The notes beneath the pieces are model-generated. The model was not told where the DNA came from, did no database searches, and worked only from the letters and a program-made list of their open reading frames with translations. A stretch of DNA of 32,094 nucleotides from Acidobacteriaceae bacterium (GTDB lineage Bacteria > Acidobacteriota > Terriglobia > Terriglobales > Acidobacteriaceae): positions 1-32,094 of the forward strand of contig JANXZS010000319.1 of the NCBI GenBank assembly GCA_025355385.1. The letters run 5' to 3'. Of the stretch, positions 266 to 12,454 are shown piece by piece (the first letter of the stretch is position 1; each line of letters begins with the position of its first letter). Both the position numbers and the translations under genes were made by a program.

Positions 266-649
266 TCAACCATCTGACAACAGAGCCACCCCGGTGAACT
301 CATCAGCTACTGCCCGAGAGCTATGCATTTCTTCTTGACGTGCCCTCCAGCGGGTTACTAGATCGCATGATGCTTTGTGCCAACCGGGATACTGGAATTC
401 GAATCCAGCTATGCGAAGACGGCCGGGAACAACCCCGCGACTCTTGAGGATCAGTTCTGATTCTGTGCGTAGAAGAAAGATGCCGATTTCGAGCATCCAG
501 CTTGCGGTCGGGAGACCGATGCGTGTACCCCATGCCTGGCGAAGGGCACTTAGGAATTCGTAGTTCGGCAGCGGGTGGGGAGCGGCAAGATTCACGGCCC
601 CGGCAATATCCTGTCGCTCGATGAAGAATTTAATAGCGCGGATGCCGAC
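266..649 (-). pseudogene. Remnant of a TIGR01777-type epimerase (C-terminal DUF1731 part)
   Basis: Reading the minus strand from 649 down to the TGA at 266-268 gives about 127 codons. The stretch starts RAIKFFIERQDIAGAVNLAAP and continues through HPLPNYEF, RQAWGTRIGLP, LILKSRGVVPGRL and AGFEFQYP. These match, from memory, the last third of TIGR01777/SDR39U1-like NAD(P)-binding epimerases, including the C-terminal DUF1731 domain. An in-frame TGA at 650-652 lies directly upstream, and the Rossmann-fold N-terminal two thirds (usually about 180-200 residues) is not recognisable at 653-1189. The first internal ATG (595) would start inside the domain, so a functional product is unlikely. It looks like a decayed fragment left by a deletion or rearrangement. 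Confidence 0.72.
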
Positions 650-1189: not shown

Positions 1190-2482
1190 ATGAAACAAGT
1201 TAGCAGACGGGAATTACTTAAGAGCAGTGCGGCGTTCTGCCTGCTAAGGAAACTCGAAGAAGTGCCAATCAGTGGCTCGGCGGCAATTGAAGAGTCGGGC
1301 CAGTTTCTAACGTTTGCCGGAACAAACTTCGTATGGCGATGGTCAGCTAAGACTGATTACTTCTCAATACTTGATCAACAAGGCGTAATGGTCGCCCAGG
1401 GTCCCATCCAGCCCGCAGTGGTAGTCAAGGCAGTCGGAAGCAATGCTGCTCGGGCGACATGCGGAACACTACAGGGGCGCGTGGTTCGGGGGAACCGGGT
1501 TGACTGGACTTACAGCAACGTGAATGGCTCTGCGAGGCTATCCACCACTTGGCGCTTCGATGAGCATGGTGTCTGGGTCGAGCCTATTTTTTACCACTCG
1601 TCGACTGTCGATGACATAGTGAGCGTGCACTATTTCGCGCAGGGATCCGCAGAGTCAGTTCGCGTATTACTGGAGTCGAACTATTTGGTATTGCCCGGGG
1701 TCTGCGAGAGCGAGGCTATTAGTCCCATTGTCAACGCATATCTCAACATGGATATCCGGACTTCACTAGGACGGGCCGGGACGGCACTCACACAGCAGTG
1801 GGGGCTACCGGTTCATTATTTTGCGGGTTTTCGGAAACCCTCCATGACATCCACCGATAAGGTGGAGGAAGAGGAGAACAGGACGCGGGCCTTTTGTTGC
1901 GGACTTACCGAAGTTCCGAGCTCTGAAATTTTCATCGAGCAAAAGGCAGGACGCAGCAGCGTGGTGTTCGACTACCGCGGTGATTTGTGGGGACACTTGC
2001 GCGGCCCTGGAGAATTCAAACTCGGCGCAGGTGTCTTGTGGACATTCGCTCCAAATTACCACGAAGCGATTCGCAAATATTACAAGAGACTATTAGAAGG
2101 AGAAGTTATTCCCTTGAAAGTGAATTCTCCCAGGAAGAATGCAGTTCTTCTGGCTCCGCAGTGGTGTACCTGGGGGGAGCAGATTTCATTGCACAAGGAA
2201 GGCAGCGATCTTGATCAAGCAAGCTTGGAAAGATTTTATGGTGACCTTACCGCGTCTGGCCTGAACGCAGGAATGGTTTCGATCGACGACGGATGGGAAG
2301 GAAAATACGGACGACTCGAACACTCAGCCGAACGCCTCCCTCGATTTGAACAATTTCTAGACCGTCTCCGCGCTGATGGCCTCTATATAGGACTTTGGGC
2401 TGCCTTCATGCGGTGCCAAGACCCGTCGGACTTAGGCCTCAGCCCGCATCACATGTTACGTCAGGTGGACGGACAGCCCTAA
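1190..2482 (+). pseudogene. GH36/melibiase-like glycoside hydrolase, N-terminal part, cut by in-frame TAA
   Basis: I chose ATG 1190 over GTG 1172 because AGGGA lies just upstream and it places a twin-arginine-type leader (SRRELLK) at the N-terminus, suggesting Tat export. The hydrophobic part of that leader is short. Residues to about 300 look like a beta-sandwich supersandwich domain. After that the TIM barrel begins (APQWCTWGEQ, SIDDGWE, LYIGLWAAF), as in alpha-galactosidase-like clan GH-D proteins. The frame ends at TAA 2480-2482, then continues open in the same frame to 3508 with the rest of the barrel. This part lacks the nucleophile region, so alone it should be inactive. It heads a same-strand group with an SDR and an MBL hydrolase. 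Substrate specificity is not inferable. Confidence 0.7.
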
Positions 2483-2497
2483 GCAGTCGGAGAAGGA

Positions 2498-3508
2498 GTG
2501 AACAAGTATTATATTTTGGACTTTACGCGTCCAGAGGTAGAGAAGGTCCTAGGTGATAGAGCCAGACAGTTCGTTCGCAGATACAAGCCTGATTTAGTGA
2601 AGTTTGATTTTGGCTATGAGATTCCCTCGCTTGCCACAGTCGCGCCATACGATATGAACTGGGCTGGTGAACGGATGATGCAGAAAGGTCTCGACGTTAT
2701 CGTCAAGTCCATGCGGCAGGAGAATCCTGACATGGTGGTGATGTACTACCACCTATCGCCACTTTTCGCGGACTACTTTGATCTTCACAGCGGTGATGAC
2801 ATGTTCATGGCGAAGGGTGAATATGAGCTCGAAGCCAACCGTCGCTTTTTCTTCAGTGGATTGTGCGGCGAGTTTGGCATGCCGACCTATGGATCTTCTG
2901 GATATGACTGGGGAAGCGAACCCGAGATATGGTTTGATTCTTCAGTGATAGGGACGATTGGCAGTCTCGCCTCTCTAGGTGGTCTCGATGAAGTTGGCGG
3001 TGGGCTGACACCTCGAATCGCAGCCAAGTACAACGGGCTTAAGCAGACATTGCGGCATACCAATCAATTCAGTGTAGTCCCGCTGGATCCTGTTTTTGAT
3101 GCCGTGACGAGGGGTGCTCACGCATCGTCATGGGTGCGTCTTGAAAGCGGTAAACCCATGCTTCTCGCGCTTCGCACTCTGCGCTTGGACGGCGGACGCG
3201 GAATCACGGAATACAAAGATATATTGAGTACCACCTGCTCTGTTGTGGTGAGCTCTTGTTCCGAGGATGCTTTAGGGCAGACAGCCAAGCTTGCTGTTGT
3301 GCCGTACGGAGACGGTGTGCTCACGTTGCACGTAAAGGCGCACGGTTCGTCTGTCGCGGAAATCAAAGAACACCTTTACAAAGACAAACCCGCTGAAAGG
3401 CTTATCCACATCCGAGAGGGCATACTTAAAATTCCATTACATGAAACCGCACAAAACGGATCACCAGTCGAATGGATAGAGATTCAAATAACTCCTGCGG
3501 AGTTCTAA
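2498..3508 (+). pseudogene. GH36/melibiase-like glycoside hydrolase, C-terminal part
   Basis: This is the same frame as the upstream part (2498 minus 1190 is a multiple of 3), resuming directly after the TAA. It supplies the second half of the TIM barrel: the VKFDFGYE strand, whose Asp is the expected nucleophile of clan GH-D enzymes, then HSGDDMF with likely acid/base acidic residues, and a C-terminal beta domain ending near 3508. GTG 2498 could be a start, but the AAGGAG at 2493-2498 overlaps that codon, so spacing for initiation there is poor. More likely this is the tail of one roughly 770-residue gene inactivated by a single substitution, or a base-call error. Readthrough or reinitiation are less likely alternatives. 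Confidence 0.7.
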
Positions 3509-3515
3509 CGAGATT

Positions 3516-4331
3516 ATGACAATCGAGATGAAGAACGGCCGCCTCATGGAAAAGGTAGCAATTGTGACGGGTGCGGGCTCGAGCGGCCCGGGCTGGGGAA
3601 ACGGTAAGGCGGCTGCCGTTCTGTTTGCACGAGAGGGCGCAAAGATATTTGCGGTGGACTTGGTTCCGGAAGCAGTCGCCGAGACGGAACATATTATCAA
3701 GCACGAAGGCGGCGAGTGTGTCGGCAGAGCTGCTGATGTTTCCAAAGGAAGCGAAGTCGAGTCTTTAGTCGAGCAGTGTATTCAGCACTATGGACGCATT
3801 GATATCTTGCATAATAATGTCGGAAACCTTGCCGTTGGCGGACCGGAAGAAACTACTGAAGAAGTATGGGACCGTCTCGTTGAGGTGAACTTAAAAAGCA
3901 TGTTCTTGACTTGTAGATACGTTCTCCCCTTCATGGTGCGTCAGGGCCGCGGAGCAATCGTAAACATTTCCTCAGTGGCGTCTATTCGCTATACCGGCTA
4001 TCCATCGGTTGCCTACAACGCAACCAAAGGTGCGGTCAATCAGTTGACGCAGAATATTGCCGTGCAGTATGCGCCCAAGGGTGTGCGTGCCAATTGTGTA
4101 TTGCCTGGCCTCATCAATACTCCGATGATTCAGCAGCCTCTAAAGGACGCCTACGGGCCGGGCGGTGCGGAGGAGATGATTCGGCGCCGGAACGAAGTTG
4201 TTCCGATGGGGAGAATGGGCGATTGCTGGGATGTGGCTTATGCTTCGTTGTTTCTCGCATCGGAGGAAGCGAAGTACATTACGGGCGCGATGTTAGTAGT
4301 TGACGGAGGATTGACCTGTAAATGCTCTTAG
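3516..4331 (+). CDS. SDR family oxidoreductase
   Basis: A classical short-chain dehydrogenase of 271 residues, the usual family length. The nucleotide-binding loop TGAGSSGPGWGNG (18-30) is a few residues longer than the standard TGxxxGIG. The NNVG motif is at 100-103, the catalytic Ser at 152/153 and YNATK gives Tyr167 and Lys171. The C-terminus has the usual GAMLVVDGG strand. It should oxidise or reduce an alcohol/ketone with NAD(P) in the cytoplasm. ATG 3516 lies 7 bp after the glycosidase stop; ATG 3528 and 3546 are alternatives because the first residues precede the fold. In context it may oxidise a sugar or polyol, but the substrate is unknown. Confidence 0.9.
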   Translation: MTIEMKNGRLMEKVAIVTGAGSSGPGWGNGKAAAVLFAREGAKIFAVDLVPEAVAETEHIIKHEGGECVGRAADVSKGSEVESLVEQCIQHYGRIDILHNNVGNLAVGGPEETTEEVWDRLVEVNLKSMFLTCRYVLPFMVRQGRGAIVNISSVASIRYTGYPSVAYNATKGAVNQLTQNIAVQYAPKGVRANCVLPGLINTPMIQQPLKDAYGPGGAEEMIRRRNEVVPMGRMGDCWDVAYASLFLASEEAKYITGAMLVVDGGLTCKCS

Positions 4332-4468
4332 GCTTTTTGCCCGTCGTCGCGGGCTGCGGTCGAAAGCCACAGTCGGAGTCAGTTTAACTGGCAAGGACGT
4401 GTCGACAGTTGAGGCGCTGGAATTTCCCGTGGTATCCATCTTAAGCAACTCCCGAATCAACTCATCCA

Positions 4469-5416
4469 ATGGAACTCTACAAAGGCGTACATCAAATTAG
4501 TTCTCTTTACGGCGGGCGATACCTATTCCAGTACCTGTTTGTCGGCGATCGCGTAATCCTCGTGGACAGCGGAATCGCCGAAACCCCTGAAAAAGTAATT
4601 TTCCCGCACATGGAACGGCTTGGGATCAATCCGGAACGGCTTGCGATGTTGATCACTACGCATCCCGATACGGATCACCAAGGAGGTAATTCAGCCGTTC
4701 GCATGATAGCGCCCGGTGCGTTGACTGCATGTGGCGAGACGGATCGACAAATGGTTCAAGATCCCGAGTGTCTTTACCGAGACCGCTACAACCATTTGCA
4801 GAACGATCACGGAATCGGCTTTGGAAGCGAGCCTTCGCCAGACGCCGGAAATCGCTGCCGGGTGGATGTCGGCTTTCGTGGAGGCGAACACGTTATGGTC
4901 GCGGAGGGCCGGGACCTTGAAGTATTGCACGTTCCAGGGCACTCCTCAGGCCATCTGGCGCTGTTTGATCGAGCTCGGGGGGCCGCGTTTGTGAGCGATG
5001 CCGTGCATGGGCGCGGTTGCCCAAACAAGGACGGTAGCATGGCTCTCCCCGTCACATATTTTCATGTTGATTTGTATCTTTCCACTCTTGCTCAGCTGGA
5101 GGGGCTGGCGATCAAGGAGTTGCATACCGGTCATTGGCCAAGCATGTATGGCGATGAGATCAGAGACTTTTTTAGCGACTCACGCCGGACTGTTGAGATC
5201 TTAGATCGCAGAATCCTTCGGGCACTAGCCAGGGCACAAGCGGGCTTGACTTTAAATCAATTAATCGATGAGGCACGAGAAGAGTTTCCCGACTGGCCCA
5301 CGAGCACGCGTGATGCAGCCGTATTCCCTGTCCACGGTCACTTGGAGCGATTGGAGAATCGCGGGCAAATCAAAGCAATCCCTGGTGCTCCGCCCAAACG
5401 ATGGCAGTCTCTCTAA
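4469..5416 (+). CDS. MBL-fold metallohydrolase with C-terminal helical (winged-helix-like) region
   Basis: A 315-residue metallo-beta-lactamase fold protein. Visible elements are VDSGI (Asp33), the metal motif HPDTDH (65-70), PGHSSGH (His158, His162), SDAV (Asp177) and LHTGHW (His222). The second His of the usual HxHxDH motif is Asp, a common variant among lactonase, glyoxalase II and LACTB2-type members. Residues after about 235 form a charged helical region ending in a helix-turn-wing-like segment. It is predicted to hydrolyse an ester, thioester or lactone in the cytoplasm. Next to an SDR a sugar-lactonase role fits, but this is inference. A 137-bp gap separates it from the SDR. It converges with the IclR gene 67 bp downstream; no terminator was seen between them. 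Confidence 0.85.
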   Translation: MELYKGVHQISSLYGGRYLFQYLFVGDRVILVDSGIAETPEKVIFPHMERLGINPERLAMLITTHPDTDHQGGNSAVRMIAPGALTACGETDRQMVQDPECLYRDRYNHLQNDHGIGFGSEPSPDAGNRCRVDVGFRGGEHVMVAEGRDLEVLHVPGHSSGHLALFDRARGAAFVSDAVHGRGCPNKDGSMALPVTYFHVDLYLSTLAQLEGLAIKELHTGHWPSMYGDEIRDFFSDSRRTVEILDRRILRALARAQAGLTLNQLIDEAREEFPDWPTSTRDAAVFPVHGHLERLENRGQIKAIPGAPPKRWQSL

Positions 5417-5483
5417 TCCCAGATTCACCAAGTGGAATTACCCCTTTCCTTCCTGCCCGTGTAGAGTCGAAAGTAGTGAATGC

Positions 5484-6260
5484 CTAAGCTTCAACAGATG
5501 CCGAAATACTAGCCGCGCATCTTTTTACCACTGCTCCAAGGCGTCGAATCTCTTCTCTGGGAATCAGGTCCACTGTGCCCACGATGCTAATCGCGGCGAC
5601 CAATTTTCCGGCGCGATTTAGAATCGGTGCTCCAATGCAACGCGAGCCGACCTCGTCTTCTTCATCATCGACTGCATAGCCCACCTCTCTGACGCGTGCC
5701 AGATGTTCTTTCAGTTTTGCCTTGGATGAAATGGTCCTCTGGTTGTGCTTCACAAAAGCAGCAGACTTAACCTGGCGATCAAACTCTTCTGGTGACAGAA
5801 ATGCGACCAGGGCTTTACCCGCGGCGGTGGAGTTGACATCCATGGCGCGTCCTGGCCAGGTTCCAACTATTCCCGCGCCGGGGGCTTCGATCTTCTCAAT
5901 AATGATGGCTTGCGAGTTTTCGAGGACCGCCAAGTGAACAGCCATGCCTGTGCCGAGCATCAGGGATATCAATAAAGGTCGGGCAACTTCGAGGATCTGC
6001 AAATTTTCGACAGCTACCCTGCTGAGACCCACGAGCCTGAATCCGAATCGATATCGTCCGCTGCGCGCGTCCTTTTGAATACACCGTTCGCCTTCAAGCG
6101 CCGTCAACATTCTGAAGGTCGAGCTTTTTGGAAGCTTAAGCGCCCGGCTAACTTCCGAGACATTCAGCGCTTTTCGCGAATACGCAAGCAGTTCCAGAAC
6201 GGCGAGTGTACGGCTCACCGCGGGAATATTGTTCTTTGCTGGCGCATTTCCTTTAGGCAT
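5484..6260 (-). CDS. IclR family transcriptional regulator
   Basis: 258 residues from ATG 6260, the standard IclR length. I preferred this over ATG 6275 because AAGGAG at 6266-6271 sits 5 bp before it. An N-terminal winged helix-turn-helix covers about 12-75 (AVSRTLAVLELLA, LPKSSTFRMLTALE). The GAF-like effector domain follows, with STAAGKALVAFL and the conserved VDDEEDEVGSRCIGAPI segment. It should bind operator DNA as a dimer or tetramer and respond to a small carboxylate or sugar-derived ligand. It is divergent from the TonB receptor, with palindromes and overlapping promoter-like elements between them, so control of the receptor operon and of itself is likely. The ligand cannot be predicted. 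Confidence 0.93.
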   Translation of the reverse strand: MPKGNAPAKNNIPAVSRTLAVLELLAYSRKALNVSEVSRALKLPKSSTFRMLTALEGERCIQKDARSGRYRFGFRLVGLSRVAVENLQILEVARPLLISLMLGTGMAVHLAVLENSQAIIIEKIEAPGAGIVGTWPGRAMDVNSTAAGKALVAFLSPEEFDRQVKSAAFVKHNQRTISSKAKLKEHLARVREVGYAVDDEEDEVGSRCIGAPILNRAGKLVAAISIVGTVDLIPREEIRRLGAVVKRCAASISASVEA

Positions 6261-6338
6261 TGGTGCTCCTTGCATCGACAGGAAAAACTTATCGAGCCGA
6301 CAACAGATCAGTACAAGCCTGTAGGCGGATTAAGAACT

Positions 6339-6354
6339 GTCCCACAGGTGGAAC
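6339..6354. promoter_or_regulatory. Candidate IclR operator, 16-bp imperfect palindrome
   Basis: GTCCCAC-AG-GTGGAAC has 7-bp arms with one mismatch. It lies between the IclR gene and the receptor, 17 bp upstream of the plus-strand -35 at 6372 and directly downstream of a possible minus-strand -10 (6355-6360). Size and symmetry suit IclR-type operators. Assignment to this regulator is inference from position. Confidence 0.45.
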
Positions 6355-6371
6355 AAGTTAGGCCCTTTCTG

Positions 6372-6401
6372 TTGACAAGTCAAGTTAGCAAACCATAATA
6401 C
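6372..6401 (+). promoter_or_regulatory. Sigma70-type promoter for the TonB receptor operon
   Basis: A perfect TTGACA at 6372-6377 is followed by CATAAT at 6394-6399 (16 bp spacing) or TAATAC at 6396-6401 (18 bp). The -35 is part of a 12-bp palindrome, TTGACAAGTCAA (6372-6383), so the opposite strand carries TTGACT with TAACTT 17 bp away (6360-6355), a possible IclR promoter. A plus transcript would have a leader of about 150 nt before ATG 6558. Confidence 0.5.
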
Positions 6402-6497
6402 GTTCATCACGATTTCTCCACGACACTTCTACAGACACGCAGGAAGCATCAACGTTCGCTCCACAGCCAGGCCGACCAGACGCTACATCGATCAGGA

Positions 6498-6516
6498 TTC
6501 TGTTACATAGACAGAA
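6498..6516. promoter_or_regulatory. Perfect inverted repeat in the receptor leader
   Basis: TTCTGT at 6498-6503 and ACAGAA at 6511-6516 are exact inverse copies separated by 7 bp. The element lies about 40 bp before the receptor ATG and about 100 bp after the predicted promoter. It could be a second operator (roadblock) or form a short RNA hairpin in the leader. Six-bp arms can occur by chance. Confidence 0.3.
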
Positions 6517-6557
6517 CAACGGGGTTTCGCAAGTAATTAGATTTGAGGGGGATTCAC

Positions 6558-9500
6558 ATGCGCTACTTAAGATCGCTAACGCTGATTCTCGGGGTCGTTA
6601 TCGGGACAACAGGGAGTGCATACAAGGCCTATGGCCAAATTCCCCAAGGGCAAGTGTTGGGTACGGTCACCGACAGCTCCGGTGCTGCCGTAGCCGGGGC
6701 CCGCGTCCGGCTAGCCAACGAACTTACCGGCATTGCGCAAACCCAGACGACCAACTCGTCCGGAGGTTACACGTTCCCGTACCTGACAACCGGAACTTAT
6801 CGCGTGTCGGTCGAAAACTCTGGCTTTAAGACCGGGATCTATCCCGGAATTCTGGTCGGTGCCGAAGAGAAGAAGCGAGTTGACGTGCAGCTTCAGCTCG
6901 GAAACGTCAGCGAGACGGTAGAAGTCAGCGGCGGTGCGGCAAGGATCGACACCGACAGCGCCGTTGTGGGAACCGTACTCTCCCAGCGGGAAGTTGTGGG
7001 TTTGCCTCTCAACGGCCGTGATTTCTCGCTTTTAGCTACCACGGAACCAGAGGTGACGTTCGCAGGGACTCAAGGCAGTTCGATTCAGGCCCAGTTGAAT
7101 ACCTTTGTCACCGTCGGCGGAAATAACATAGTAGGCTCAGCCTACAGTCTTGATGGCGTGGACAACCGGAACGACTCTTGGGCAGGCCCGGCGATGAATC
7201 CTTCGGTGGACACCATTCAGGAATTCCGCATTGAGAAATCGCAGTCATCTGCCGAGTTTGGCGGTGGTGGCGCACAGCTCATGGTGGTGAGCAAATCAGG
7301 GACGAACAGATTTCATGGGGCGCTGTGGGAGTTCAATAGGAATGCAGCGCTCAATGCGGCCGAATATTACACTCATGAAAAAAACGCTTTGATTCGCAAT
7401 GAGTTCGGTGTGGATGTTGGCGGCCCGATCCTCAAGAACAAGCTATTCTTCGACTTCAATTACGAAGGCCACCGGCAGCGCCTGAATTACCAGGGAACCG
7501 ACACGGTAATGACAGAGAAGATGCGGACTGGGGATTTCAGTGAATTGCTGCCTGCGAAGATTATCGTTGACCCAAATACCGGCATACCCTTTCCCAACAA
7601 CGTAATCCCGGCTGATCGAATTCTTCCGGTGATGAAGGACATGCTCACACTCGAATTCCTTCCCACCCGACCGGGAATCGTCAACAATTTAACGACGAGC
7701 ATTCCAACATACTCGAGTAATAACCAATATTCCGGCCGCTTTGACTACAGCTTGACGCAAAAGGATTCGCTGTTCTTCCGCGGCACTTATCAACCTCGCA
7801 AGGGCGTTGCAGCCCCACTTTATCCACAATGGATGAGTGCCGGCGAAGACTACACGTTCTCGAACTATGGTGCGGGCTGGACACGTAGTTGGACGCCGAC
7901 ACTATTCTCCGAAACCCGCTTCGGTTACCACCGCGAGTTGGTAAACCAAGTTAACGTCGCTCCCAAGAACGCTCCGGCTACTGAGCCGCAGGGCTTCGGT
8001 TCCGACCCTATTGATCACTTCCCGATCGTATTTGTTGACGACTTCGGGTCGTTCGGTCAAGGCGGAAACAACGTCACTTTTGATACCAAATTTTGGGAGT
8101 TGGATCAGAACGTGTCGCTAACACGTGGAAACCATTTGATAAAGGTTGGATTTGCCGGACAACACTACTTTAGTGGAGCTCCCTTCCAGTACTCGAATAC
8201 AAGCTGGCCTTTCTTCTTCTTTTCAGACAATGTGTACAGCGGACTCGCAGCGGCCGACTTGCTGCTGGGACTGGCGACTGAAGGATACATAATTACCAAG
8301 AGCCCGCCGAAGGCGCAGAACTCTGGAGAGTATTCCTTCTTTGCGCAGGATGACTGGAAGATAACCCCGTACCTGACTTTGAACTATGGGCTGCGTTACG
8401 AGTTGCCGATACCGGAAACCGAAAAGCACGATATTTGGGGCAATTTCGATCCTGCATTGGGCAAGATCGTGTTAGCAGGTGACTCAATTCAGCCTGGTCT
8501 CGGCCCGCAATTCGTGTACGACGGTTATGGCAAGTTCCTTGTGCCGGCGAGCGAGACAAAGCTGCCAAGGCATGCGTTGGTCTATCAGGATTACAACAAT
8601 ATTGCTCCTCGATTTGGTTTCGCCTGGCGGCCATACCGAAAAAACAGCACGGTCATTCGAGGCGGCTACGGTATCTACCACGTCCGCCCCTGGGGTCAGC
8701 AGCAGGCCAATTCCTTCACCATTCCTTACGGCGGTGCGTTCGCGGTTTTCAACAGCACACCCAAACCTGACCTCTCGGCGGACAACATGTTTAACGGTGG
8801 CCCAAGCGGTGCCTTACCTGCCCCAAGTGCCTACTACAAGGACCTCCATCAACCCACCGGCTATTCGCAACAGGCAAGCTTAGGCATGGAGCAGGACCTG
8901 CCATGGGGGATGACGGGCGAACTAACCGTCCAACATCAAATTTTCACCCACATCGAAAACTACTACAACTTCAACCAGCCACATATTGGTCCGGGCACCA
9001 TTGACTCGCGGACGCCCTATCCAGATTTTTCATCCATTAGCGGAATCTTTGGACAAGGACATGGACATTATGATTCGTTGGTGGCTCTTATAAGAAAGAG
9101 TTCGCGTCATTACACCTACCAGGCGTCATACGTGTGGGCGAAGAACGTGGGACAGGATATTATCGACATTTACAATCCAAACCAATTTAATGGCCCAGAG
9201 AACTATGTTCCACACCAGATAAAATTCCATTTCCTGGTGGACCTACCGGTAGGTGAGGGGAGGCGATGGCTGAATCACGGTGGCTTGGCAAACGAACTGG
9301 TGGGTGGTTGGACACTCTCTGGCATTGCAACCCCCTATTCCAGTGGACAGCCGTTCAATGTGTATTACAACGGGGATCCCGGGAACATCAATGTCTTTAC
9401 CGTAAGGGCTGCACAAACCTGCAGCGGTCATGTCAGTAGTCCCACGGCGAGCAAGTGGATTGATGCATCCTGCTTCGGGGCGCCCGCCGCGGGAACGGTC

Positions 9501-9743
9501 GGAAACTCTTCGACGGGAGCGCTGTTAGGCCCTCGTTCATTCAGCGCGGATTTCGCAGTCTATAAGGATTTTATTTTTCCCGAAAAGATAACCGCGCAAC
9601 TCCGTACCGAGATGTTCAACATATTCAACCATCCCAATCTTGGCGCGCCCGTTAACGTGGAAAATGGCTTCGACTTTGGTCAAGTTACCACTATCAACCA
9701 AGTGCCCAGAGTTATTCAGTTCGCTATGCGGGTGACCTTCTAA
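6558..9743 (+). CDS. TonB-dependent receptor, Oar-like, with carboxypeptidase regulatory-like domain
   Basis: 1061 residues from ATG 6558, preferred over TTG 6543 because GAGGGGG precedes it. A signal peptide covers about 1-26 (hydrophobic LTLILGVVIG). Next comes a carboxypeptidase-regulatory-like Ig fold at about 29-110 (GTVTDSSGAAVAGARV, GTYRVSV), then the plug domain with LPLNGRDF, YSLDGVDNRN and VVSKSGTNRFHG. A long outer-membrane beta-barrel follows, ending in MRVTF with the terminal Phe typical of barrel proteins. It should import or bind a large or scarce ligand using TonB energy; no SusD-like partner is nearby. This architecture is highly expanded in Acidobacteria. It is divergent from the IclR gene, so it is probably the inducible entry point for the catabolic operon. 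The 12-bp hairpin just after it may limit readthrough downstream. Confidence 0.93.
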   Translation: MRYLRSLTLILGVVIGTTGSAYKAYGQIPQGQVLGTVTDSSGAAVAGARVRLANELTGIAQTQTTNSSGGYTFPYLTTGTYRVSVENSGFKTGIYPGILVGAEEKKRVDVQLQLGNVSETVEVSGGAARIDTDSAVVGTVLSQREVVGLPLNGRDFSLLATTEPEVTFAGTQGSSIQAQLNTFVTVGGNNIVGSAYSLDGVDNRNDSWAGPAMNPSVDTIQEFRIEKSQSSAEFGGGGAQLMVVSKSGTNRFHGALWEFNRNAALNAAEYYTHEKNALIRNEFGVDVGGPILKNKLFFDFNYEGHRQRLNYQGTDTVMTEKMRTGDFSELLPAKIIVDPNTGIPFPNNVIPADRILPVMKDMLTLEFLPTRPGIVNNLTTSIPTYSSNNQYSGRFDYSLTQKDSLFFRGTYQPRKGVAAPLYPQWMSAGEDYTFSNYGAGWTRSWTPTLFSETRFGYHRELVNQVNVAPKNAPATEPQGFGSDPIDHFPIVFVDDFGSFGQGGNNVTFDTKFWELDQNVSLTRGNHLIKVGFAGQHYFSGAPFQYSNTSWPFFFFSDNVYSGLAAADLLLGLATEGYIITKSPPKAQNSGEYSFFAQDDWKITPYLTLNYGLRYELPIPETEKHDIWGNFDPALGKIVLAGDSIQPGLGPQFVYDGYGKFLVPASETKLPRHALVYQDYNNIAPRFGFAWRPYRKNSTVIRGGYGIYHVRPWGQQQANSFTIPYGGAFAVFNSTPKPDLSADNMFNGGPSGALPAPSAYYKDLHQPTGYSQQASLGMEQDLPWGMTGELTVQHQIFTHIENYYNFNQPHIGPGTIDSRTPYPDFSSISGIFGQGHGHYDSLVALIRKSSRHYTYQASYVWAKNVGQDIIDIYNPNQFNGPENYVPHQIKFHFLVDLPVGEGRRWLNHGGLANELVGGWTLSGIATPYSSGQPFNVYYNGDPGNINVFTVRAAQTCSGHVSSPTASKWIDASCFGAPAAGTVGNSSTGALLGPRSFSADFAVYKDFIFPEKITAQLRTEMFNIFNHPNLGAPVNVENGFDFGQVTTINQVPRVIQFAMRVTF

Positions 9744-9751
9744 TCCAGACC

Positions 9752-9781
9752 AATAGAGAGGGGGCTTATCCCCTCTCTATT
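9752..9781 (+). terminator. Stem-loop terminator-like hairpin after the TonB receptor
   Basis: AATAGAGAGGGG (9752-9763) and CCCCTCTCTATT (9770-9781) form a perfect 12-bp stem with a 6-nt loop, starting 8 bp after the receptor stop. The downstream tract (attgtctct) is only partly T-rich, so termination may be incomplete. It may instead be an mRNA-stabilising 3-prime end that separates receptor expression from the genes below. Confidence 0.7.
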
Positions 9782-9871
9782 ATTGTCTCTCGTGGCGTCG
9801 CTAAAAGGCGCGATAGGCGTGGGGGCGAATTATGAAGTCATTAATAGGCTCTGAGGTGGGGATTGAAATTC

Positions 9872-12454
9872 ATGAAAGAAACGTATCTAAGTCGCCGTCA
9901 AGTGCTGCAGGGTATGCTTGCCACAACCGGCGTGGGCCTTGTAGGACCTCACTTTGGTCTGTCCGCGGACGAGGAAGTGCATGCGCGGACAGTTCACGAA
10001 TGGACCCTCGAAGAGGCACAGAAATATTGGCAACCAATGAACCGAGCGGTTCAGCACGTTGGAGTGCCGGGCCATGAATGGCAGGCTGGCGTGCTCTGGA
10101 ACGGAGCATTGGTCTTCGGTCCTCTGAAGTATGCCCGGGGAAATCCTGGCATGGTGAAGGAATTGGCGCTGTTGGGCGACAACGCCTTGCATATTTCCGT
10201 TGGCTTTGGAAAGTCACCGAAGTTCGTGGGTCGCCTTGGCGGCCCTAACCCCGATCTGGCGCGGAGTAGTCAATCAGGGCACTTACCCATCCCAAGTATC
10301 GAAACAAAGGACAACGATCTAACTTGGAAGCAAACCGTATTTGCGCACCTGCTCGACCAGGATTTCGATCAGGCGCTCCATCCTAAAGAGGATCACCTGC
10401 TTATAGTGCATTCCCATTTCACGGTTCGCAACAATTCCGCGGACAAAAGCGATGGCCACCTCTGGTTTCATTTCGGCGACACCAGCCAGGTCGTGTTCGG
10501 ATACAAGGCAGGTCAAGGCAATGAACTTGGCTCCAGCATCGCGCATAAGTTCGTCTCTCCCTGGGGCTTCGTTGAAAACGAAGTTCGCTATGTGATCCCT
10601 ACTCCTAAAAAAGGAGCGGTGAAGTGGCATGACGATATTGATCCGCCCGCGGAAATGCAGATGCGGGCAACTAAGATACTCGAGTGGATGGTATCGTTAG
10701 CGCCCGGCGAAGAAGCTAGTCTTGACCTCAGGGTTCCCTACAAGACGATTCCTCGGCAAACGGGTCGACGTCTCCTCGATCTGGATCGGGAACAGTTGCA
10801 TGACCAGACGCTCCATTTCTGGGAAGGTGTAGTCGCCCAGGCGGGAAGCATCGTGACTCCAAATCCCTTCGTGAATGACTATGTCACGGCTGTCGCGGGC
10901 CAAATGTCGCAGCAGGTGGGATATCGCCATAAATCAAATGTGTGGATGTATAAGACCAGCCCCAATCACTACGAGATGTACTGGCCGTGTAATGCGGCGA
11001 AGGCGCTTCCGACACTCGACCTGCGCGGACTGACACAGTATTCACGTCCTGTGCTTCAGAGTTTCATCGATACCCAGACAGACGATATCGGCAAGCTGAC
11101 GCGAGAAAAAATGGGGGAGGGGGACGTCGTTGCCGGCGAGGGCTTTGAAAAGCGCCCAGGATTCATGGGCAACTTCGGCGATTGGACGGCGAACACCCTG
11201 CTGCTTAGTCACGGGCTTGAAATCTGGGCGCTAGCCTCGCACTACCGGATTGTGCGAGACCGCAAGTGGCTTGGGGATGGTCACGGATCTCCGCTGCAAG
11301 CCATGCTCGACGCTTGCGATTGGACGCTGGCGCAGCGCCGCCGTACGATGCGCGAGGAAAAGGGTAAGGAGGTCCCCCATTGGGGATTATTGCCGGCGGC
11401 CTCAGCGCACGATTGGCTCTGGGGCAACACCATTTTCAACGATGCCTTTTGCATATTTGGAATCATAGAGACGGTCCGCGTTCTCCGCGAGATATCGCAT
11501 CCTCGTGCGGAAGAACTGGCCTCGGCATTGAACGAATATCGTGCCTGCCTGCGCGACCGCTATGTTGAGGCGCGTGACAAAGCCCGCCCGTTACCAATGC
11601 CTGACGGAAAACTGATGCCGTATGTTCCTCGTGATGTGTACGAGTTGGACTGGGCGAAGACCGATTGGACCTACACAACGTTTGGCCCGCTTCGCGCCGG
11701 GGCCTGGGGAGCTATCGATCCTCATGATGAATTGATCGATCAATCGTTGGCGTTCGTTGAAACTGGAATGCCGAAGGGTGAAGGCTATTACCTCGAACTC
11801 GTTAAGAACGAGTTTGGACAGTTGACCGCTGATGAAAACTTCCGCGATGTGAATGATCCGGCATCCAGTCGACACTTCCTCTTGAGGCACTATGTCGAGT
11901 ACGAAACGATGTGGCCTATAGGGTTTGACCTGTTCCTGCAGCGAGATGATCTGCCCCGGTTTTTTGAGTGGTTCTTCCACAATTTGTCGATGGTGATCCA
12001 CAAGGGTTATCGCGTCGGCGTGGAATCACTCGAGGGCGTTCCCTCGTGCGCGCCCGGTGATGGCGAACGCTGGCGTGCAGTGCGTAACATGTTCGTGAAC
12101 GAACGTGGTGGCTACGACGGCTCGCAGCAGTCCCTCTGGTTGATGCAGGCGATTCCTCGGAGTTGGCTGAAGTCTGGAGAGAAAATGGCGGTGCACAAAA
12201 TGGGAACACATTTCGGAGGCCAGGTAGATCTGGAAACTGAAGTAGCAAAGGACGGAACTTCGGTCCAGGTTCAGGCCAATCTGGATTTAACGGTCCTGCC
12301 GACTGAAATTCGAATGCGGTTGCGGTCTGGAAATGGACAGCCGCTAAAATCCGTGACCATCAACGGAACTAAGACGGCGGTGCTTGAAAACGATACTATC
12401 GCGTTGCCCCAACAGCTTAAGGGCAACTATAGAATCGACGCTCGGTTTGTCTAA
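9872..12454 (+). CDS. Tat-exported six-hairpin glycosidase-like protein
   Basis: About 860 residues. The N-terminus carries a twin-arginine motif (LSRRQVLQG) and a hydrophobic stretch (GMLATTGVGLVG), indicating Tat export to the periplasm. Residues of about 50-320 resemble an N-terminal beta-sandwich (VLWNGALVFGPLKYARGNPG). Residues of about 330-730 are helical with aromatic and acidic clusters (NHYEMYWPCNAAKALPTLD, DWTANTLLLSHGLEIWALA, HDWLWGNTIFNDAF), as in (alpha/alpha)6 six-hairpin glycosidases such as GH95/GH65-like proteins. A short beta domain closes it. I do not recognise a named family. ATG 9872 is used; TTG 9863 has better spacing to GAGGT (9853-9857) and adds three residues. It probably trims an imported or cell-surface glycan. 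Confidence 0.65.
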   Translation: MKETYLSRRQVLQGMLATTGVGLVGPHFGLSADEEVHARTVHEWTLEEAQKYWQPMNRAVQHVGVPGHEWQAGVLWNGALVFGPLKYARGNPGMVKELALLGDNALHISVGFGKSPKFVGRLGGPNPDLARSSQSGHLPIPSIETKDNDLTWKQTVFAHLLDQDFDQALHPKEDHLLIVHSHFTVRNNSADKSDGHLWFHFGDTSQVVFGYKAGQGNELGSSIAHKFVSPWGFVENEVRYVIPTPKKGAVKWHDDIDPPAEMQMRATKILEWMVSLAPGEEASLDLRVPYKTIPRQTGRRLLDLDREQLHDQTLHFWEGVVAQAGSIVTPNPFVNDYVTAVAGQMSQQVGYRHKSNVWMYKTSPNHYEMYWPCNAAKALPTLDLRGLTQYSRPVLQSFIDTQTDDIGKLTREKMGEGDVVAGEGFEKRPGFMGNFGDWTANTLLLSHGLEIWALASHYRIVRDRKWLGDGHGSPLQAMLDACDWTLAQRRRTMREEKGKEVPHWGLLPAASAHDWLWGNTIFNDAFCIFGIIETVRVLREISHPRAEELASALNEYRACLRDRYVEARDKARPLPMPDGKLMPYVPRDVYELDWAKTDWTYTTFGPLRAGAWGAIDPHDELIDQSLAFVETGMPKGEGYYLELVKNEFGQLTADENFRDVNDPASSRHFLLRHYVEYETMWPIGFDLFLQRDDLPRFFEWFFHNLSMVIHKGYRVGVESLEGVPSCAPGDGERWRAVRNMFVNERGGYDGSQQSLWLMQAIPRSWLKSGEKMAVHKMGTHFGGQVDLETEVAKDGTSVQVQANLDLTVLPTEIRMRLRSGNGQPLKSVTINGTKTAVLENDTIALPQQLKGNYRIDARFV

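Follow-up and report, generated by a model that had tools for sequence, protein, structure and literature searches.

According to Belinky et al. (2021; PMC7918605), in-frame stops are widespread in bacterial genes that are otherwise conserved and tend to be short-lived, and the categories in which they occur most often include carbohydrate metabolism. The glycosidase gene described below, found in a window of 32,094 nucleotides (the whole stretch of acidobacterial DNA that was analysed), fits the kind of case described in that paper, as it is a carbohydrate gene with a single in-frame stop and with no frameshift or long deletion. It differs from the large-scale set described in the same source, which is composed of stops common to at least two species, whereas the stop of the window gene is present in one genome only.

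At the level of fold, the closest described enzymes belong to GH36 and GH31, which were the top structural matches (Z about 22, with Foldseek in agreement) of a model in which Tyr was put in place of the stop (pTM 0.83, mean pLDDT 79.4). The GH36 alpha-galactosidase of Thermotoga maritima (PDB 5m12) resembles the model in fold (Z 22.4, rmsd 4.5, 489 aligned) but shares only 12% identity with the window protein, which gave no row for the Pfam Melibiase family (PF02065) at E up to 1. Similarly, GH31 YicI of Klebsiella aerogenes (PDB 8t7z; 8t7z_E, Z 22.0, rmsd 5.0, 494 aligned) is alike in fold but only 14% identical. The GH31 alpha-galactosidases (8j50, 8j52 and 8j53) also share the fold, and the upstream half of the gene has a weak sequence match to 8j52 (E 0.00013); a PDB sequence search with the downstream half found nothing at E up to 1, and an NCBIfam search gave one chance-level row (E 0.17). 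With Pfam GH31 (PF01055), the window protein scores 17.3 bits, below the cut-off of 23.5; of four scanned homologues, L002 (24.2) and L003 (39.5) pass, L006 (13) stays below, and L011 has no row. The cut-off of PF02065 (27 bits) is passed by none of the four (L002 14.7, L003 12.2). The model thus predicts a glycosidase with a GH31/GH36 fold, composed of an N-terminal beta domain and a (beta/alpha)8 barrel, and the structural matches to the two families appear tied. The original prediction had called the gene GH36-like, which agrees with the fold but not with a choice of GH36 over GH31, since GH31 structures match equally well and a Pfam cut-off is passed only for GH31 (in two of the four homologues).

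The features of the locus within the window are as follows:
1190..2482 (+), upstream half (430 aa), with a twin-arginine-like leader (SRRELLK), the N-terminal beta domain and the first three barrel strands
2480..2482 (+), lone in-frame TAA at residue 431, read from the sequence; the aligned residue in the nearest homologues is Tyr
2489..2492 (+), GGAG, candidate ribosome-binding site for a restart, 5 nt before GTG 2498; may be due to chance
2498..3508 (+), downstream half (336 aa from GTG), with the remaining barrel including the predicted nucleophile, and the C-terminal beta domain; ends with TAA
2606..2608 (+), codon of Asp473 in VKFDF, predicted nucleophile, invariant in 12 of 12 aligned sequences
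3516..4331 (+), short-chain dehydrogenase, the downstream neighbor

As originally proposed, the two open frames (1190-2482 and 2498-3508, forward strand) lie in the same reading frame with no indel between them, and 1190-3508 comprises 771 sense codons, one internal stop and the terminal TAA. Residues 1-767 give one tblastn match with the nearest relative, which spans the stop with no shift (54% identity), and the Markov coding score is above 0 both 5' and 3' of the TAA. The claims that the stop lies between two barrel strands and that the VKFDF motif is downstream of it were likewise borne out, the fold model placing the TAA between strands 399-404 and 469-472. Asp473 is likely the catalytic nucleophile, a role that we take from analogy with GH31 and GH36 enzymes, and the upstream half alone lacks this residue. 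The RR motif of SRRELLK is presumably part of a Tat (twin-arginine) leader, and the glycosidase is probably exported; 10 of 21 homologues have an S/N-RR motif among the initial 80 codons of their open frames.

Upstream of the glycosidase gene, an open piece (269-595, reverse strand) directed away from it encodes a DUF1731 domain (E 1.9e-08) and has the look of a terminal remnant from a lost gene; two other upstream frames were scanned and gave no Pfam row. Further downstream, positions 9863-12454 (forward strand) encode a protein of 863 aa that carries an RR-type leader (SRRQVLQG) and has no Pfam match at E up to 0.001. The substrate is not fixed by the neighbors of three homologous loci, which are a methionine-synthase-type B12 protein and a RES domain (L002), a fucosidase and TonB-type receptors (L003), and a Melibiase, a sugar transporter and a TonB-type receptor (L006). 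At locus L002, the glycosidase family is represented twice on one strand (3693-5999 and 7947-10253), and between the two copies lies a 581-aa frame (6018-7763) for which Pfam gave nothing at E up to 1e-5.

Homologues were taken from a named genome collection, which gave 10 loci, and from two draws on larger groups, namely 298 genomes of the order, of which 11 had a match, and 398 genomes of the family, of which 12 had one, the own genome being counted. Copies from the own genome (L001, L012 and L023) were removed beforehand, as were duplicate loci, and the alignment contained the window gene and 21 homologues. One of these, the remote L022 (25% identity), was included in the residue count and left out of the decay test described below. 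In the relatives' search, a TGA in G031 proved to be the gene's own end, and a TAG in G053 lay outside the blast match, the matched frame being open over 781 codons; neither is an internal stop. One other genome of the same genus had no match to the gene at E up to 1e-5.

The stop column is occupied by Phe in seven homologues, Tyr in five, Ile and Val in three each, Leu in two and Arg in one (the remote L022). None of the 21 has a stop codon there, and in none is the gene split. The original prediction had described the TAA as one base away from Lys, Gln or Glu and had suggested looking for these residues at position 431 of the orthologues. The alignment speaks against this, because the five nearest homologues all have Tyr (codon TAC in four, TAT in one), and Lys, Gln or Glu is found in none of the 21. 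The TAA would therefore most simply have arisen from a Tyr codon by a third-base change.

Both halves appear to be free of decay, as judged from 94 columns that are invariant in the 20 closer homologues (without L022): the window protein differs in three of them (Y47F, D246E and A507S), and leave-one-out differences for the other homologues range from 0 to 10, in a comparison whose nearest homologues are only about 54% identical to the window protein. It follows that the stop is either very recent or not real, in agreement with the earlier proposal of a recent nonsense change or base-call error with no decay. By a rough estimate rather than a measured rate, a dead gene of 2.3 kb should gain another stop or frameshift by the time neutral divergence has reached about one percent.

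Stop codon usage was examined in frames of at least 250 codons within 1,407,739 of the 4,626,746 genome bases. The 715 long frames of this sample terminate with TGA (272), TAG (260) or TAA (183), with no sign that TAA is avoided as a terminator, and the glycosidase gene itself ends with TAA. A tRNA search of this draft assembly, in which 150 of 160 first-look candidates were scored, yielded 47 tRNA matches; all 47 were typed, and none has a UUA, CUA or UCA anticodon. There is thus no sign of a suppressor or of a new meaning for TAA. The idea that TAA encodes an amino acid here, considered after a lone TAA was found in a CusA-like efflux gene of the same assembly, was rejected on these grounds and also because the residues of the relatives differ (Tyr/Phe here, Gln or Asp in the pump) and another lone stop is a TGA.

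Searches with protein families in the own genome revealed at least two further long genes with one lone stop and an otherwise open frame: (i) the CusA-like efflux gene (G000:C197; L059 933-4139), with a lone TAA at 1539-1541, and (ii) a TonB-type receptor gene (G000:C265; L181), with a lone TGA. At the site of the pump TAA, 8 of the 10 aligned relatives have Gln and two have Asp (11 relatives were supplied, and L177 was excluded as it does not cover the site). An ABC gene (L061) contains a TAA and further frame breaks and is decayed; by eye, it adjoins an apparent transposase fragment. Matches with a stop amounted to 1 of 12 for PF00873, 0 of 9 for PF01055, 1 of 42 for PF00005, 0 of 31 for PF00106, 3 of 34 for PF07690 and 1 of 35 for PF00593. 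Four of these six stop-bearing matches were inspected (the pump, the ABC gene, the receptor and C3), two C35 rows being left out; the TGA of C3 looks like the gene's own end.

Split frames were also sought by two scans. The codon-frequency scan gave three candidates in 677,996 bases and missed the case of the window, and is thus too weak. The Markov scan recovered this case, with 16 candidates on the same 677,996 bases and 45 in 1,407,739, most of which, by eye, look like neighboring genes sharing a frame; because the CusA-like case escaped it both times, it is no census of lone stops. Besides the window gene, two Markov candidates were checked by Pfam: the ABC gene and a recombinase (L076 12976; G000:C95), likewise counted among the decayed genes, in which a TAA divides the Resolvase half from the zinc-ribbon half in the same frame. 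The lone stops of this genome do not share a single codon or residue, and nonsense changes or consensus errors at scattered sites would fit this pattern.

The interrupted glycosidase gene most likely reflects either an assembly error or a loss of function of the ordinary kind that arose very recently, and not a new mode of gene reading. With moderate confidence, we consider it a recent loss-of-function allele created by one base substitution to TAA and not yet decayed. In the sampled strain, TAA would have replaced the codon of an aromatic residue, in the simplest case Tyr; translation would end after 430 residues, before the strand of the nucleophile, so that no complete active site would be made, and the allele would be too young for decay. 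The premature stop stands where the homologues have a sense codon, and we infer that the change is present in the organism rather than only in the consensus, and that the product is inactive. Against this, a consensus error would look identical, and the GGAG-GTG start after the stop would permit the synthesis of a second polypeptide. A consensus or base-call error, with a sense codon in the organism and an intact gene, is a possibility to be taken seriously, though one that we hold to be less probable than the loss-of-function allele: the assembly is a draft of 321 contigs with 2.89% contamination, the gene shows no decay, and the two other long genes with one lone stop are what scattered errors would give. 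On the other hand, real decay is also present in this genome, namely in the ABC gene with its stop and frame breaks and in the gene end-piece upstream of the glycosidase gene.

The remaining explanations would keep the stop and still yield an enzyme. It is very unlikely that ribosomes end at the TAA and restart at GTG 2498, and that the two halves form a working barrel. A candidate start is present, with GGAG and a 5-nt spacer before a GTG that is separated from the TAA by 15 bases, and a comparable start (GGAG, AGGA or GAGG located 4-9 nt before it, within 10 codons) follows only 279 of 8948 in-gene codons (3.1%) in 22 genes of the window; this figure is post hoc, and such a start also occurs at the same site in 1 of the 20 closer homologues, L008, which is unsplit. 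These observations give a weak hint that translation from GTG 2498 could yield the second half. Moreover, the break falls in a loop of variable length among homologues, in the model the second half would open three residues before a strand, and both halves are conserved; at the same time, the break lies inside the catalytic barrel, and the second half lacks the RR leader. Natural two-gene orthologues with a good start at the junction had been held in the original prediction to speak against an interrupted gene; the start exists here, but none of the 21 homologues is split. Even less probable is a gene fission at birth, in which the TAA would have created two cistrons, the second beginning at the GGAG-GTG start, the half-barrels would form a working glycosidase, and the leaderless half would be exported by its partner. 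We give the least credence to readthrough, by which a near-cognate tRNA, e.g., tRNA-Tyr, would decode the TAA with some frequency and give a low level of full-length enzyme. It would be consistent with the absence of decay and with the widespread, short-lived in-frame stops in conserved bacterial genes described in PMC7918605. However, tolerated readthrough, one of the options originally offered, found no positive support: the stop is shared by no homologue, a stop-reading tRNA was not detected among the typed tRNAs, TAA is a routine terminator in this genome, and its lone stops do not correspond to one codon or residue.

As a pseudogene or an assembly error, the interrupted gene matters for annotation only, and the assembly contains several genes whose lone stop could lead a gene caller to report two genes in place of one. 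If it were true that the halves work together, the locus would represent a natural split-barrel enzyme that is one mutation old.
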